Assembly: GCA_001825665.1 (NCBI GenBank) | Contig: MHXZ01000075.1 | Location: 1-32,587, forward strand | Length of the DNA stretch: 32,587 nucleotides | Direction of reading: 5' to 3' | Source: Planctomycetes bacterium GWF2_41_51 | Lineage (GTDB): Bacteria > Planctomycetota > Phycisphaerae > Sedimentisphaerales > UBA12454 | Shown: positions 27,470 through 32,587 of the stretch, in pieces | How the letters are laid out: every line of letters begins with the position of its first letter | Numbering within the stretch: position 1 is the first letter of the stretch | Program-made: the position numbers and the translations under genes | Notes under the pieces: model-generated | The model's input: only the letters and a program-made list of their open reading frames with translations | Database searches by the model: none | What the model was told of the DNA's origin: nothing

Positions 27470-27633
27470 TTAAATAATTTACTGTCAAAAAATGCTGCAA
27501 GATTGTTGAAACCGCTGATTGAATTCGTAGTCCAGAACATGGTGGGACTAGAACAATGGAGCCAACAGGAGTCGAACCTGCGGCCTCTTGCATGGCATGC
27601 GCATTGCGATTGCAAACCCTTGTTTTTTGCCAT
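27463..27633 (-). pseudogene. gene start truncated at the left island boundary
   Basis: Directly after the kaiB-like stop on the minus strand, AAAGGA and an ATG at 27633 start a frame M-A-K-N-K-G-L-Q-S-Q that after about 15 codons enters the tRNA-derived repeat (27549-27589) and then AT-rich DNA, ending at 27463. The start site looks genuine and resembles the starts of the other genes of the operon, but everything after residue 15 is tRNA antisense or intergenic sequence. I read it as the first codons of a further operon gene cut off by recombination; a spurious frame is possible. Confidence 0.4.
27549..27589. repeat. left copy of 41-bp direct repeat: tRNA 3' part (probable attachment site)
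   Basis: Identical over 41 bp to 32547-32587. On the minus strand it contains acceptor 3' strand TGGCTCC plus A73 (27557), T stem ACAGG/CCTGC in complement with loop TTCGACT, and the variable loop AAGAGGCC. The similarity to a tRNA-Ala continues for a few bases (CTTGCATG in complement sense) and then stops near the anticodon loop; no 5' half is present. This is the displaced 3' fragment expected at the far end of a tRNA-integrated element. Confidence 0.75.
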
Positions 27634-27643
27634 TTTTTTTCCT

Positions 27644-27970
27644 TTAAGTTCTTTGTCTAAGGTCAAGCCCGACAAGGACGCGTTCTTTATTTGAAAGGTC
27701 TCCGATTATTTTTCGCACGGGCACGGGAAATTTCCGCACAAGAGTGGGGACGGCGATAATCTGGTCACCGCCTACTAATTGCGGATGCTTGAGCAAATCA
27801 ATAACTTCGATATGGTACTGGCCGGGCACATGCTCTTCGCAAATCTTTTTGAGATTGTCCAAGGCTGTAGCCGCTCTTGGGGTTAGGCCGGCGACGTAGA
27901 GGCGCAGTTCCCATTCTTTTTTGACGGCCGTGGTCTTTTTAGTTCTATGTTTACTTTTCACAGTTTGCAT
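27644..27970 (-). CDS. kaiB: KaiB-like protein 1
   Basis: 108 residues. After a basic 18-residue N-terminal tail comes the thioredoxin-like KaiB domain: [19 protein letters not shown] (22-40), [37 protein letters not shown] and [19 protein letters not shown]. All the conserved KaiB segments are present. In cyanobacteria KaiB switches fold and binds the KaiC CI ring; here partner KaiC is encoded 12 nt upstream. It is the last intact gene of the minus-strand operon; a truncated start follows (27633). Confidence 0.92.
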
Positions 27971-27982
27971 AAATACTTTCCT

Positions 27983-29677
27983 TTAGTCGGGGTTTCTTAA
28001 CCGAGACATTTCTTTTTTTTGCTGAATAATCATTGCCTCTTTTCGGCGATTGTTATCTGCAATAAGTTTCATCTCTGTATTTATCGCTTCAGTTTGAGCC
28101 TTTAAGGATGCAATTTGCGCGTCGATTGCCAATTGCTGCTGGCGCAACTCAAGCTGTTTACGCTGGGAAGACTGGCTGTCGGAAAGTTCCATCGAGCGAT
28201 CTTTAGCCTCCTGAACCAGCCGGGCTGAACCGGTCAGGACCATTCCTGACCCGACATAGACGTTTCGAAGCTGGATACCATTATCGCTTAGGATAAATTC
28301 CCTGACCTGGTTTGAGTGCGCCATTCCGCGCGATTTAAGAATATAGAGCAGGCGATTTCGTTCGCCATCGGTTTCGATATTGCGAAGTAAAAGCCAGGTG
28401 TCCATCAGCGATGAAATTCCAACTTCGCTCTGTTCAGAAGCAGCGCCGCCACCTGTCAAACTGGTAAAAATAGTTGTAATCTGATTATTCTTCAAAAAAT
28501 CAATCAGCCGAGTCATCATCGCCTTGATTTCATCGGTTTCGCCGATTGCGTTCAGGTTTGTTATCGGGTCCACAACCACCACCCTGGGTTTGAAATCATC
28601 TACAAGTTTGTGAATGCTGACAAGGTGCGTTTCAAGACCGTATAAAGTAGGACGAACTGACCGGAATCTCAAAAGATCTTTTTTGGTCCATTTGGAGAGG
28701 TTAATGCCGATAGAATTCATGTTTCTAAGGATTTGTTCCGGCGATTCCTCGAAGGAAAGATAGAGGCATTTTTCTTCTCTGCTGCATGCGCTGTCTGCAA
28801 AGGCAGCAGCCACACTTGATTTGCCGCTGCCGGCGGTGCCGCTGATAAAGACACTGGTGCCGCGGAAATAGCCCTTGCCTCCGAACATTGTGTCTAATCT
28901 TGGAATACCGGTCGAAATCCTGGCGTTACTGACCGGATAAATCAGACCTAATGCGCTTATTGGCAAAACAGACAAGCCTGTTTCATCAATCAGCGTTGGA
29001 TATTCATTTGTACCGTGCTGCGAGCCGCGATATTTAATAATGCGCAGCCGCCTGGTCGCCACCTGGTTAATAACGCGATTGTCCAGAAATATTACGCAAT
29101 CGCTAACATATTCTTCAAGCCCGTGACGCGTAAGTGTCATTTCACCCTTTTCGCCTGTGATTATAGCAGTGACGCCTTTGGTCTTGAGCCAGCGGAATAA
29201 TCGTCTAAGCTCTGCTCGCAATATTGCTTCGTTAGGCAGTCCTGCGAACAGCGCCTCTACGGAATCCAGCACCACTCGTTTAGCGCCGATACCGTCAATC
29301 ATACTGCCAAGTCGAACGAAAAGTCCTTCGAGGTCATATTCGCCGGTCTCTTCGACTTCGCTTCGTTCGATATGGACGTAATCGACGGCCATTTTCTTTT
29401 GCCGGACAAGCTCTTTTACGTTCATTCCAAGCGACGCCACATTGACGGCCAACTCATCGGCGTTTTCTTCGAATGCCATAAAGATGCCCGGCTCATTATA
29501 CTCTGTGATGCCGCGGACAATAAATTCCATCGCCAGAAGTGTTTTGCCGCAACCGGCAGAGCCGCAAATTAAAGTGGGCCTTCCTTTGGGCAAACCGCCA
29601 TTTGTAATTTCATCCAGTCCGCCAATTCCTGTTGGACATTTTTCCAGCGCTTTTATCTTGCTTTTTTGATTTGCCAT
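27983..29677 (-). CDS. kaiC: KaiC-family double ATPase/autokinase
   Basis: 564 residues from the ATG at 29677, which has AAAGGA 9 nt upstream; an ATG at 29698 has none. Two RecA-like halves: CI with P-loop GSAGCGKT (39-46), FEEN (catalytic Glu 70-71) and VVLDSVEAL; CII with P-loop GTAGSGKS (280-287), SFEES (310-311) and VVVVDPIT. The phosphorylation region reads GISSLMDT, so Ser422-Ser423 would correspond to Ser431-Thr432 of Synechococcus KaiC. The C terminus (about 490-560) is a long Gln/Lys/Glu-rich coiled coil in place of the cyanobacterial A-loop and KaiA-binding tail. Hexameric ATPase with slow autokinase activity expected. Lies between a histidine kinase gene and kaiB. Confidence 0.93.
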   Translation of the reverse strand: MANQKSKIKALEKCPTGIGGLDEITNGGLPKGRPTLICGSAGCGKTLLAMEFIVRGITEYNEPGIFMAFEENADELAVNVASLGMNVKELVRQKKMAVDYVHIERSEVEETGEYDLEGLFVRLGSMIDGIGAKRVVLDSVEALFAGLPNEAILRAELRRLFRWLKTKGVTAIITGEKGEMTLTRHGLEEYVSDCVIFLDNRVINQVATRRLRIIKYRGSQHGTNEYPTLIDETGLSVLPISALGLIYPVSNARISTGIPRLDTMFGGKGYFRGTSVFISGTAGSGKSSVAAAFADSACSREEKCLYLSFEESPEQILRNMNSIGINLSKWTKKDLLRFRSVRPTLYGLETHLVSIHKLVDDFKPRVVVVDPITNLNAIGETDEIKAMMTRLIDFLKNNQITTIFTSLTGGGAASEQSEVGISSLMDTWLLLRNIETDGERNRLLYILKSRGMAHSNQVREFILSDNGIQLRNVYVGSGMVLTGSARLVQEAKDRSMELSDSQSSQRKQLELRQQQLAIDAQIASLKAQTEAINTEMKLIADNNRRKEAMIIQQKKEMSRLRNPD

Positions 29678-29745
29678 TTTTGGTGTTCCTTTTACCATTA
29701 AAAAAACTATAACTACATTATTGTAAAGTACTTATATTGTCATAG

Positions 29746-31584
29746 CTAATCAGGAATAGTGAAGAAGAACGTCGAGCCTATATCGGGCTGCGATTCAAGC
29801 CAGATTTTGCCACCATGGCGTTCGACAATTCTTTTGCAGACGGCAAGACCGATGCCATCACCTTCACTGTTGCTTTTTTTATGCTCGCGCTGAAAAAGAG
29901 TAAAAATACGTATTTTGAAATCTTCACTGATGCCGATGCCATTATCACTAACGGAAAAGACCCAATATTTTTCTCTTCGCTTGCATGCAATATGAATTTT
30001 CGGATTTTGATTTTCTTTTTTAAATTTAAGGGCGTTATGAATAAGATTCTGGAATAACCTTAAAATCTGTACTTCATCGGCTTTAACTTCAGGCAATTTA
30101 TCGCAGGTGAATTCTGCTTTATTTTCAGTAAGGCTTTTATCAAGATTACGAACTACAGCAGTAATAATTTTATTCAGATCAATAGAGACAAAACTTTGGC
30201 CTTGGGACTGAACCCGTGAATATTCAATTAGCCCGAGAATCATATTTTTCATAGTTTGGGCACCGCTAACAGAAAAATTTATATATTCATTTGCAGTCTC
30301 ATCGAGTTTATCCTTGTACTTCATTCTTAAAAGCTCAACAAAACCGGAGATGGCGCGCAGAGGCTCTCGCAAATCATGACTGATAACATTTGCAAATTGT
30401 TCAAGTTCCTGGTTTGAGCGCTGAAGCTCGGTACTTAGCTGCTTTAATCGGTCCTGGTCTTTTTCGCGATCGATTTTAGACCTCAAAGCTGCAATACCGA
30501 AGGACAGGTCATTTGCCAGTTCCTGAAGCAGTTTTACTTCATCCTGCGAAAAGGGGTCGAGCTCGTCAGAATATAAAACCAAAGAGCCAAAAATATGTTC
30601 ATTTTCTTTTAATGGAAAACCAATGGCCGAGCCATAATGCCTTTTTAATTTTTCGAAGCGCCAATGTTCAAAACGGGGGTCAGAGGGAATATTTCTGAAT
30701 ATTTCAACTTTACCGGTTCGAATGGCGATTCCCGAAGGACCCTGACCGTATTTATCATCAGCCCACGAGATTTTTAATTTTTCCATAAAATTCACATCGT
30801 ACCCGGCGTAGGCGACAGGTTTGACGGTTTTTTCTTCATCATCCCGAGCATAGTTGATGGTGACCATAGCATAGCCGCAATCGGTATTTATAATATTACA
30901 AATTTCTTTAAGAAAATCAGTTTCATTTTGCGTTTTCATCATTGCCTGATTAGAGTTGCTAAGCGCCCTTAAGATGCGGTTAAGCTTTTGAAGTTCCAGG
31001 GCTCTTTTCTGGAGTTCTGATTTTTGCTCATTAATCTGCCGGATAACTTCTTCTGAAGCTTCAAGCAGGGACATATCTGTGGCAACGAAGCAAATGCTTG
31101 CAGAATCTGGCTCTTTAAGGGGACTGGCAGAAACCAAAGCAGGGACAAATGAACCATCGGAGGCGAGAAAAACGAGCCTTTTCTTTACAGGTTCAACTAA
31201 AGCGATATTGAGGAGGGAAGTCATTTCCTCATATTGCGAGCTGATAATAAATTCTTCAAGATGATGTCCTATGATATCTTCCATAGGCTTTTTGAGCATT
31301 TGACTCAATCTATTGTTACAAAATAGTATTTGGCCCCGTGGATTGGCAGTGAAGCCTCCTTCATTCATTGTTTCGACGAGCAGGCGATAAATGCGTTCTT
31401 CGCCTGTAAGTGTAAAGATTTGCTGGCCGGCCGGGCCTGTAACGACTAAAGCATCTACGGAGCCGCTGCGGATGGCATCAAGGGCTTCTTCGGCTTCCTG
31501 AAGACGAATTTTGAGTTCCTCGAGTTCGTTTCGAAGTTTCTGATTTTCATTCTGCAGTTTTTTTGATTTATCTTCGTTTTTCAT
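29746..31584 (-). CDS. PAS-GAF histidine kinase of the Kai cluster
   Basis: 612 residues, no membrane helix, hence cytoplasmic. Order: N-terminal coiled coil (1-45), PAS domain (about 60-180; YRLLVETMNEGGFTANPRG, then IGHHLEEFI), coiled coil, GAF domain (about 215-375; GYAMVTINYA, SAIGFPLKENEHIFGSLVLY), HisKA with FANVISHDLREPLRAISGF (phospho-acceptor His403), and HATPase with LIHNALKFKK (N box), SVSDNGIGI (G1) and GDGIGLAVCKRI (G2). Its ATG overlaps the upstream kaiB-like stop (ATGA). In cyanobacteria SasA is a KaiB-like domain fused to a kinase; here the two parts are separate but coupled genes, so it is the likely output kinase of the KaiC module. No response regulator is adjacent. Confidence 0.9.
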   Translation of the reverse strand: MKNEDKSKKLQNENQKLRNELEELKIRLQEAEEALDAIRSGSVDALVVTGPAGQQIFTLTGEERIYRLLVETMNEGGFTANPRGQILFCNNRLSQMLKKPMEDIIGHHLEEFIISSQYEEMTSLLNIALVEPVKKRLVFLASDGSFVPALVSASPLKEPDSASICFVATDMSLLEASEEVIRQINEQKSELQKRALELQKLNRILRALSNSNQAMMKTQNETDFLKEICNIINTDCGYAMVTINYARDDEEKTVKPVAYAGYDVNFMEKLKISWADDKYGQGPSGIAIRTGKVEIFRNIPSDPRFEHWRFEKLKRHYGSAIGFPLKENEHIFGSLVLYSDELDPFSQDEVKLLQELANDLSFGIAALRSKIDREKDQDRLKQLSTELQRSNQELEQFANVISHDLREPLRAISGFVELLRMKYKDKLDETANEYINFSVSGAQTMKNMILGLIEYSRVQSQGQSFVSIDLNKIITAVVRNLDKSLTENKAEFTCDKLPEVKADEVQILRLFQNLIHNALKFKKENQNPKIHIACKRREKYWVFSVSDNGIGISEDFKIRIFTLFQREHKKSNSEGDGIGLAVCKRIVERHGGKIWLESQPDIGSTFFFTIPD

Positions 31585-31934
31585 TCGTCTTTTTTTGATC
31601 TAATATCCAAACCCAGAAGAACTCTTTGTTTATTAGCCAAATTGCCAATGAGCTTTCGCAACGGCGGCGGCAGTTTTCTAATAAGTGTTGGGACAGCGAT
31701 AATCTGCTCACCTTTTGCAAGAGGCGGGTGCTGGTAAATATCGAAAATTTTAAGGTCATATCTGCCTTTAAGGTTTTCTTCACATATCCGTGTAATGTTC
31801 CTAATCGCGGCTGAGGATTTGGAGTTAATTCCAGCCACATAAAGTTTAAGTACGTATTTTTGTTTGGCGCTTTGCTTAGCTTTTTTGGTCAATTCCTTTT
31901 CGATGCTCGAACTATTTTTTATTTTTTTAGCCAT
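31581..31934 (-). CDS. kaiB: KaiB-like protein 2
   Basis: 117 residues: a 26-residue Lys/Ser-rich N-terminal tail, then the KaiB domain with [56 protein letters not shown] and LIGNLANKQRVLLGLDI. It is clearly related to, but diverged from, the copy at 27644 (the ID of the second beta segment and the NSKSS loop differ). TAAGGA is 7 nt upstream of the ATG. Its stop overlaps the kinase start by 4 nt. One of the two KaiB copies may work as the SasA-type sensor domain in trans. Confidence 0.92.
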   Translation of the reverse strand: MAKKIKNSSSIEKELTKKAKQSAKQKYVLKLYVAGINSKSSAAIRNITRICEENLKGRYDLKIFDIYQHPPLAKGEQIIAVPTLIRKLPPPLRKLIGNLANKQRVLLGLDIRSKKDE

Positions 31935-31948
31935 AAAAGATTCCTTAA

Positions 31949-32131
31949 TCAGATTTTCCTTATAGATTTGAGCATAAGCCCGTGGTTGGACTGATGTTTA
32001 TTAATCGCGTCGTGGATGAGTTTCTCTATTGCAGCCATATCTTTTTTCAACATAGTATGATGTTGCTCTTTTAGGCAGTCGAGCAAATCTGTTATTGAGG
32101 AAGTCGTCCAATTATCTGAAAATGTCTGCAT
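31949..32131 (-). CDS. small helical protein at the head of the Kai operon
   Basis: 60 residues, not recognised. After a polar start, two amphipathic helices: SITDLLDCLKEQHHTMLKK and DMAAIEKLIHDAINKHQ. The LKEQHH pattern superficially recalls the first helix of hemerythrin-like domains, but the chain is too short for a four-helix bundle. No strong Shine-Dalgarno precedes the ATG. Support for a real gene comes from position: it lies between a good promoter and kaiB2 (14-nt gap). If it is not translated, the kaiB2 leader would be about 270 nt long. Confidence 0.5.
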   Translation of the reverse strand: MQTFSDNWTTSSITDLLDCLKEQHHTMLKKDMAAIEKLIHDAINKHQSNHGLMLKSIRKI

Positions 32132-32546: not shown

Positions 32547-32587
32547 TAGAACAATGGAGCCAACAGGAGTCGAACCTGCGGCCTCTT
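32547..32587. repeat. right copy of 41-bp direct repeat (probable attachment site)
   Basis: Identical to 27549-27589 and running off the window, so the true length is unknown. It includes 8 bases beyond the tRNA 3' end (TTGTTCTA in minus-strand sense) and the tRNA T arm and variable loop. Confidence 0.8.
32555..32587 (-). tRNA. 3' part of a tRNA gene, probably tRNA-Ala, cut by the window edge
   Basis: Minus-strand sense: variable loop AAGAGGCC, T arm GCAGG/CCTGT with loop TTCGACT, acceptor strand TGGCTCC and discriminator A at 32555. U at position 70 would allow the G3-U70 pair of tRNA-Ala. No CCA is encoded. The anticodon and 5' half lie outside the window, so both identity and integrity are inferred. 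Confidence 0.5.

Follow-up and report, generated by a model that had tools for sequence, protein, structure and literature searches.

Cyanobacterial SasA joins a KaiB-like thioredoxin domain and a histidine kinase in one chain, and KaiC stimulates its phosphotransfer to an RpaA-type regulator. KaiB and SasA are rivals for the CI site on KaiC, and in Synechococcus a free KaiB sitting on KaiC recruits a separate histidine kinase, CikA; the fold-switched cyanobacterial KaiB on KaiC holds both KaiA and CikA via its strand beta2 (PMC6378743). Outside the cyanobacteria, KaiC timers must use an output pathway other than SasA-RpaA, as a survey of 2017 concluded (PMC5520375). Operons of kaiC, kaiB and a kinase are already known: kaiC-kaiB-PAS/histidine kinase operons were known in 2016 in Rhodopseudomonas palustris and Rhodobacter (Cereibacter) sphaeroides (PMC4794148; operons also in PMC5520375). 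The R. sphaeroides operon kinase was proposed to relay redox signalling to KaiBC (PMC5520375), and the extended tail of the KaiC of this species forms a coiled-coil dodecamer (PMC10076222). According to a 2011 paper, genes for histidine kinases or GGDEF/EAL proteins follow kaiC or kaiB in most non-cyanobacterial clusters (PMC3164672). In addition, the KaiB of Legionella was crystallised in the fold-switched state and is implicated in stress, not in rhythms, and the roles of multiple KaiB copies were called not yet fully understood in a paper of 2023 (PMC10808063).

This report discusses a kai locus in Planctomycetes bacterium GWF2_41_51, carried by a stretch of 32,587 nucleotides of contig MHXZ01000075.1, which as a whole is called the window. 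It resembles the operons of R. sphaeroides and R. palustris in being KaiA-less and in having KaiB and a downstream kinase, and it shares with R. sphaeroides a KaiC with an extended C-terminal tail and a kinase beginning with a conserved module, here named NTM (58 bits in R. sphaeroides). However, the R. sphaeroides cluster has one KaiB, of the clade called KaiB1 below, and an HWE kinase, whereas in the window a second KaiB clade is present, the kinase is of the HisKA kind and the genes stand in a permuted order. The RtaNt kinases of Ramlibacter are similar in that kaiC has a dedicated kinase next to it whose N-terminal domain is conserved, but they accompany kaiB-less genomes, whereas NTM accompanies kaiB (PMC3164672).

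Gene organization of the kai locus

The genes are read on the minus strand in the order KaiB2, kinase, KaiC and KaiB1, and the features are as follows.

27549-27636, no strand: direct repeat of 88 nt with the 3' part of a tRNA-Ala; other copy at 32547-32587
27644-27970, minus strand: KaiB1, 108 aa, the KaiC-side KaiB (E=9.7e-25), in the clade of R. sphaeroides KaiB
27983-29698, minus strand: KaiC, 571 aa, double ATPase with the phospho-site pair S429-S430 and a C-terminal tail extended as in R. sphaeroides
29746-31584, minus strand: soluble PAS-GAF sensor histidine kinase, 612 aa
29752-30405, minus strand: HisKA (residues 394-460) and HATPase_c (503-611) core of the kinase, Pfam
30493-30930, minus strand: GAF domain of the kinase, residues 219-364, Pfam
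31075-31389, minus strand: PAS domain of the kinase, residues 66-170, Pfam
31357-31536, minus strand: NTM, kinase residues ~17-76, consensus EAEEAL.AIR.G.VDALVV.G..GQQIFTL.G.E..YR
31581-31584, minus strand: ATGA in which the kaiB2 stop and the kinase start overlap, read from the sequence
31581-31934, minus strand: KaiB2, 117 aa (Pfam KaiB, E=1.6e-24), the kinase-side paralogue, with the signature DIYQ.P and an N-terminal extension

A sequence-only reading of this DNA had described a separate KaiB gene overlapping a soluble kinase by 4 nt and a second KaiB after KaiC, and the coordinates bear out both: kaiB2 and the kinase gene share the ATGA, and KaiB1, 44% identical to KaiB2, lies behind KaiC. 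The products of kaiB2 and the kinase gene are probably made together via translational coupling; an overlap of 4 nt has little meaning by itself, and its recurrence beside the same protein families in many phyla exceeds chance. Both KaiBs pass the cut-off of Pfam PF07689 (27 bits; KaiB1 86.6 and KaiB2 85.9 bits) and miss that of TIGR02654, the cyanobacterial clock KaiB equivalog (145.3 bits; 97.0 and 89.7 bits). The boxes SHDLREPL, DNGIGI and GDGIGL are recognized by eye in the HisKA/HATPase_c core, and a domain and family profile search found no receiver domain in the window kinase.

KaiC of the window scores 725 bits against NF006799, the family of KaiCs of KaiBC systems (cut-off 408), and has two features of the R. 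sphaeroides-type KaiBC timers, in that its C-terminus is extended and two residues open to phosphorylation stand side by side; a dodecamer and ATP/ADP-driven timing further define this type. All 68 KaiCs compared keep the Walker lysines and the catalytic glutamates, the pair corresponding to S429-S430 is SS in 61 of 63 KaiCs of NTM loci, and the tail at these loci has a median of 80 residues past position 505, with 4 of the 63 being without it. By analogy with the R. sphaeroides protein, these tails may also form coiled coils.

The N-terminal module and its association with KaiB

The NTM makes up the first ~75 residues of the kinase and appears by eye as a coiled-coil helix, then a probable beta-hairpin and then the entry helix of PAS. 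No Pfam domain of its own was found for it in a Pfam search of the window kinase and 74 NTM proteins. It is the most conserved part of the set of kinases, with a mean majority-residue frequency of 0.76 (residues 25-76) compared with 0.51 for PAS and 0.34 for the catalytic part, although part of this contrast comes from the placing of the search patterns within the NTM and from the differences in effector among the proteins. Behind NTM-PAS, the 74 proteins carry HATPase_c in 52 cases (HisKA in 30, HisKA_3 in 12 and HisKA_2 in 4), sigma-54 activators in 12 and GGDEF/EAL in three. For example, the NTM-PAS protein after KaiB2 in genome G088 (L046, 8636-10615, plus strand) is a sigma-54 activator with AAA+ and a Fis-type HTH and no kinase. 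A kinase adjoining KaiB in another genome (G444) has a diverged NTM-like N-terminus, and NTM may shade into a wider family.

NTM is nearly exclusive to genes adjoining kaiB. Comparison of gene coordinates in 582 whole genomes of three groups placed 57 of 60 strong NTM matches beside KaiB, and the KaiB-kinase gene pair is widely conserved, as the sequence-only reading would have it. In the phylum of the window all nine strong matches in 294 genomes lie beside KaiB, partly by construction, since the profile (A1) was made of eight NTMs taken from beside KaiB; the real test in this set is that the 294 genomes contain no further strong match. Two independent sets gave 25 of 28 in the order of Geomonas (141 genomes) and 23 of 23 in the order of Lamprocystis (147 genomes); of the three exceptions, two are at the edge of a contig, and the third follows another kinase on a contig of 6.1 kb. 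Co-occurrence of NTM and KaiB in genomes gave p values of about 1e-24 and 2e-16 by Fisher's test, uncorrected for shared ancestry.

A scan of a genome collection with NTM alone as the query confirmed 217 relatives. Among the best 80 of these 217, KaiB lies at most 350 bp upstream in 72, and with one fusion (L133) and one second NTM in tandem (L121) the total comes to about 74; two further NTM genes are 1.7-5 kb downstream of a KaiB1, one locus is cut, and three NTM genes are without KaiB nearby (L077, L101 and L148). Hosts of these best 80 loci belong to at least ten phyla and also to methane-cycling archaea; they include Planctomycetota, Nitrospirota, Desulfobacterota and relatives, Acidobacteriota, Verrucomicrobiota, Lentisphaerota, Chloroflexota, Bacteroidota, Spirochaetota and Pseudomonadota among the bacteria, and Methanoperedens and other Methanosarcinales among the archaea. 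The fusion, from a member of the Methylococcaceae, is natural and reads KaiB2-NTM-PAS-GGDEF-EAL in one frame, on one incomplete MAG contig with its 5' end cut. Long frames also hinted at KaiB-kinase fusions in two genomes (G108 and G179), which proved on inspection to be separate genes.

Two old clades of KaiB

KaiB1 and KaiB2 are two old, well-supported clades which follow gene position. In a tree of 165 KaiB and SasA domains (91 columns, inner forks poorly resolved), all 67 NTM-side KaiBs fall in the KaiB2 branch (SH-aLRT 97), together with 14 single KaiBs adjoining NTM, and the KaiB1 branch (SH-aLRT 99) holds 67 of the 68 KaiC-side KaiBs, three single ones and the R. sphaeroides KaiB. The sole KaiC-side exception, the middle KaiB of one locus (L092), lies upstream of an NTM. 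These separate branches rule out that the two KaiBs are recent duplicates, which would have told against the sequence-only reading.

KaiB2 is marked by Y67-Q68 (98 and 95%), L61 and the N-terminal extension, in which the motif [ST]xx[FYLCW][ED] is found in 42 of 75 KaiB2s versus 1 of 30 KaiB1s. Several of the positions most different between the clades lie in and directly after strand beta2, and KaiB2 retains residues in common with KaiB1. Two Geomonas genomes have a single KaiB each, a KaiB2 adjoining KaiC and NTM, so KaiB2 can serve as the sole KaiB. KaiB2 is not obligatory for the pairing, because NTM kinases adjoin KaiB1 alone in R. sphaeroides, in Falsirhodobacter and at a small number of further loci. 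On plasmid pB of R. sphaeroides (L156, 6267-7703, plus strand), the HWE kinase of the kaiBC operon has NTM, although the sole KaiB beside it belongs to the KaiB1 clade. An Acidobacteria MAG carries KaiB1 and KaiB2 fused in one frame of 245 aa (L129, 7245-7982, plus strand).

AlphaFold2 models from 37-row alignments are ground-state KaiB-like for KaiB2 and ground-state-like for KaiB1, both of low confidence (pLDDT 61 and 71, respectively); a permanently fold-switched KaiB2 is not seen in them, and the best Foldseek matches of the KaiB2 model are ground-state KaiB crystals. Variation of KaiB2 follows KaiC beyond the share of KaiB1 and NTM (partial r 0.42), and a mirror-tree comparison did not tell the co-evolution of KaiB2 and NTM apart from that of KaiB1 and NTM (difference 0.10, interval -0.29 to 0.50).

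Proposed mechanism

The reading preferred here, with a probability of roughly 0.55, is that the four genes make up a KaiC timer that lacks KaiA and has an output arm of its own, in which KaiB2 couples the state of KaiC to the kinase. KaiC with its extended tail would cycle or switch its phosphorylation with KaiB1 as the regulator, and KaiB2 would bind KaiC when the latter is in its KaiB-binding state. A surface specific to KaiB2, comprising the N-terminal extension and the DIYQQP region behind strand beta2, would then hold or release the NTM-PAS front end and so set kinase or phosphatase activity; by analogy with cyanobacterial KaiB, KaiB2 may sit on CI with its beta2 region turned towards NTM-PAS. 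At other loci this KaiB2/NTM-PAS front end would drive sigma-54 activators or GGDEF/EAL proteins. That KaiB2 binds KaiC and NTM, and through which surfaces, is inferred here, as are output as the direction of signalling and any daily timing. Output is favoured because effectors are swapped behind the same NTM-PAS front end; the conserved KaiB-kinase pairing itself would look alike were the kinase an input. The wider proposal, of a widespread modular output system of KaiA-less KaiC timers in bacteria and archaea with KaiB2 as the adaptor from KaiC to NTM-PAS and with interchangeable kinases, sigma-54 activators and c-di-GMP enzymes, is put forward tentatively, at a little under even odds.

In the literature searched, mostly without subscription journals, neither NTM nor a division into KaiB1 and KaiB2 was found described, and the available text of PMC3164672 names neither two KaiB types nor NTM. 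The conserved pair of KaiB2 and an NTM-PAS effector is one concrete and testable answer to the questions of output and of multiple KaiBs, and the recurrence of KaiB-kinase pairing in many bacteria and some archaea points to a widespread output of KaiC timers outside the cyanobacteria. Cultured hosts with the KaiB-NTM pairing include Geomonas and R. sphaeroides.

Alternative explanations and the relationship to SasA

The sequence-only reading interpreted the pair as a split SasA. The old division of the KaiBs, the conserved pair and the KaiB2-NTM fusion speak for it; descent from the SasA thioredoxin domain or close likeness to it is without support. Both systems link a KaiB-family domain to a histidine kinase, and function by analogy would suit a KaiB2 derived from, or giving rise to, the KaiB-like domain of SasA and serving the kinase as a permanent, thioredoxin-like sensor of KaiC. 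With the KaiB2 profile, SasA domains gain about 12 bits over their score with the KaiB1 profile, although the KaiB2 profile is the more diverse one, and one reduced tree joined KaiB2 and SasA. However, the two SasA sequences in the KaiB tree have such long branches that alternative positions suit the data equally well or better, and the KaiB2 model, of low confidence, resembles ground-state KaiB. KaiB2 is KaiB-like, not SasA-like in sequence: among solved structures it matches R. sphaeroides KaiB best (6e-26) and SasA far less well (0.07). SasA is one chain with a thioredoxin-like domain, whereas here two genes, parted by a stop codon, encode two proteins, the kinase carries NTM, PAS and GAF, and against the SasA family NF006800 (cut-off 342 bits) the kinase reaches 145 bits and KaiB2 26. 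A true split SasA is thus very improbable, and KaiB recruiting the separate kinase CikA is the better analogy, although CikA binds via a pseudo-receiver domain instead of NTM-PAS and shares the single KaiB of the clock.

Domains such as PAS and GAF typically sense ligands or redox state, and the kinase might be an input, its front end sensing redox or a small molecule and acting through KaiB2 on the state of KaiC. The R. sphaeroides kinase with the suggested redox role (PMC5520375) has NTM too. Against this, the same front end is joined to effectors with a downstream action, namely, sigma-54 activators and GGDEF/EAL enzymes, and the input reading appears unlikely, though it is the strongest competitor. 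Less probable still is a KaiC-independent stress pathway of KaiB2 and the kinase, with kaiC and kaiB1 merely co-inherited neighbours. Legionella KaiB offers a precedent (PMC10808063), and some KaiB2-NTM pairs have no KaiC nearby (L052, L053 and L073); however, most sit with KaiC of one kind, KaiB2 keeps the residues held in common with KaiB1, and its partial correlation with KaiC also argues for a KaiC-linked role.

Other features of the host genome

The host genome (4.83 Mb, 138 contigs) has exactly four KaiBs, two in the window and two on contig C93, where the order is kinase-KaiC-KaiB1-KaiB2-kinase. The second kinase there, cut by the contig end, shares its N-terminus with the window kinase, and the KaiC of 475 aa is without the extended tail. 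The kinase before kaiC in this second cluster (L011, 2936-5713, minus strand) is a PAS histidine kinase of 925 aa with a hydrophobic N-terminus.

The two direct repeats, 83 of 88 nt alike, bracket the kai genes of the window. The copy at 32547-32587 runs on into contig C71 through an overlap of 66 nt, the contig break lying inside the repeat; an intact tRNA-Ala(GGC) copy is found at the end of contig C111, and the repeats hold the 3' part of this tRNA. The bracketed genes look like an island or cassette of ~5 kb at a tRNA site, in which there is no recombinase gene. Directly upstream of kaiB2, a frame of 60 aa (31949-32131, minus strand) weakly matches (9e-5) part of the RIC family of FeS-cluster repair proteins and is possibly a remnant.
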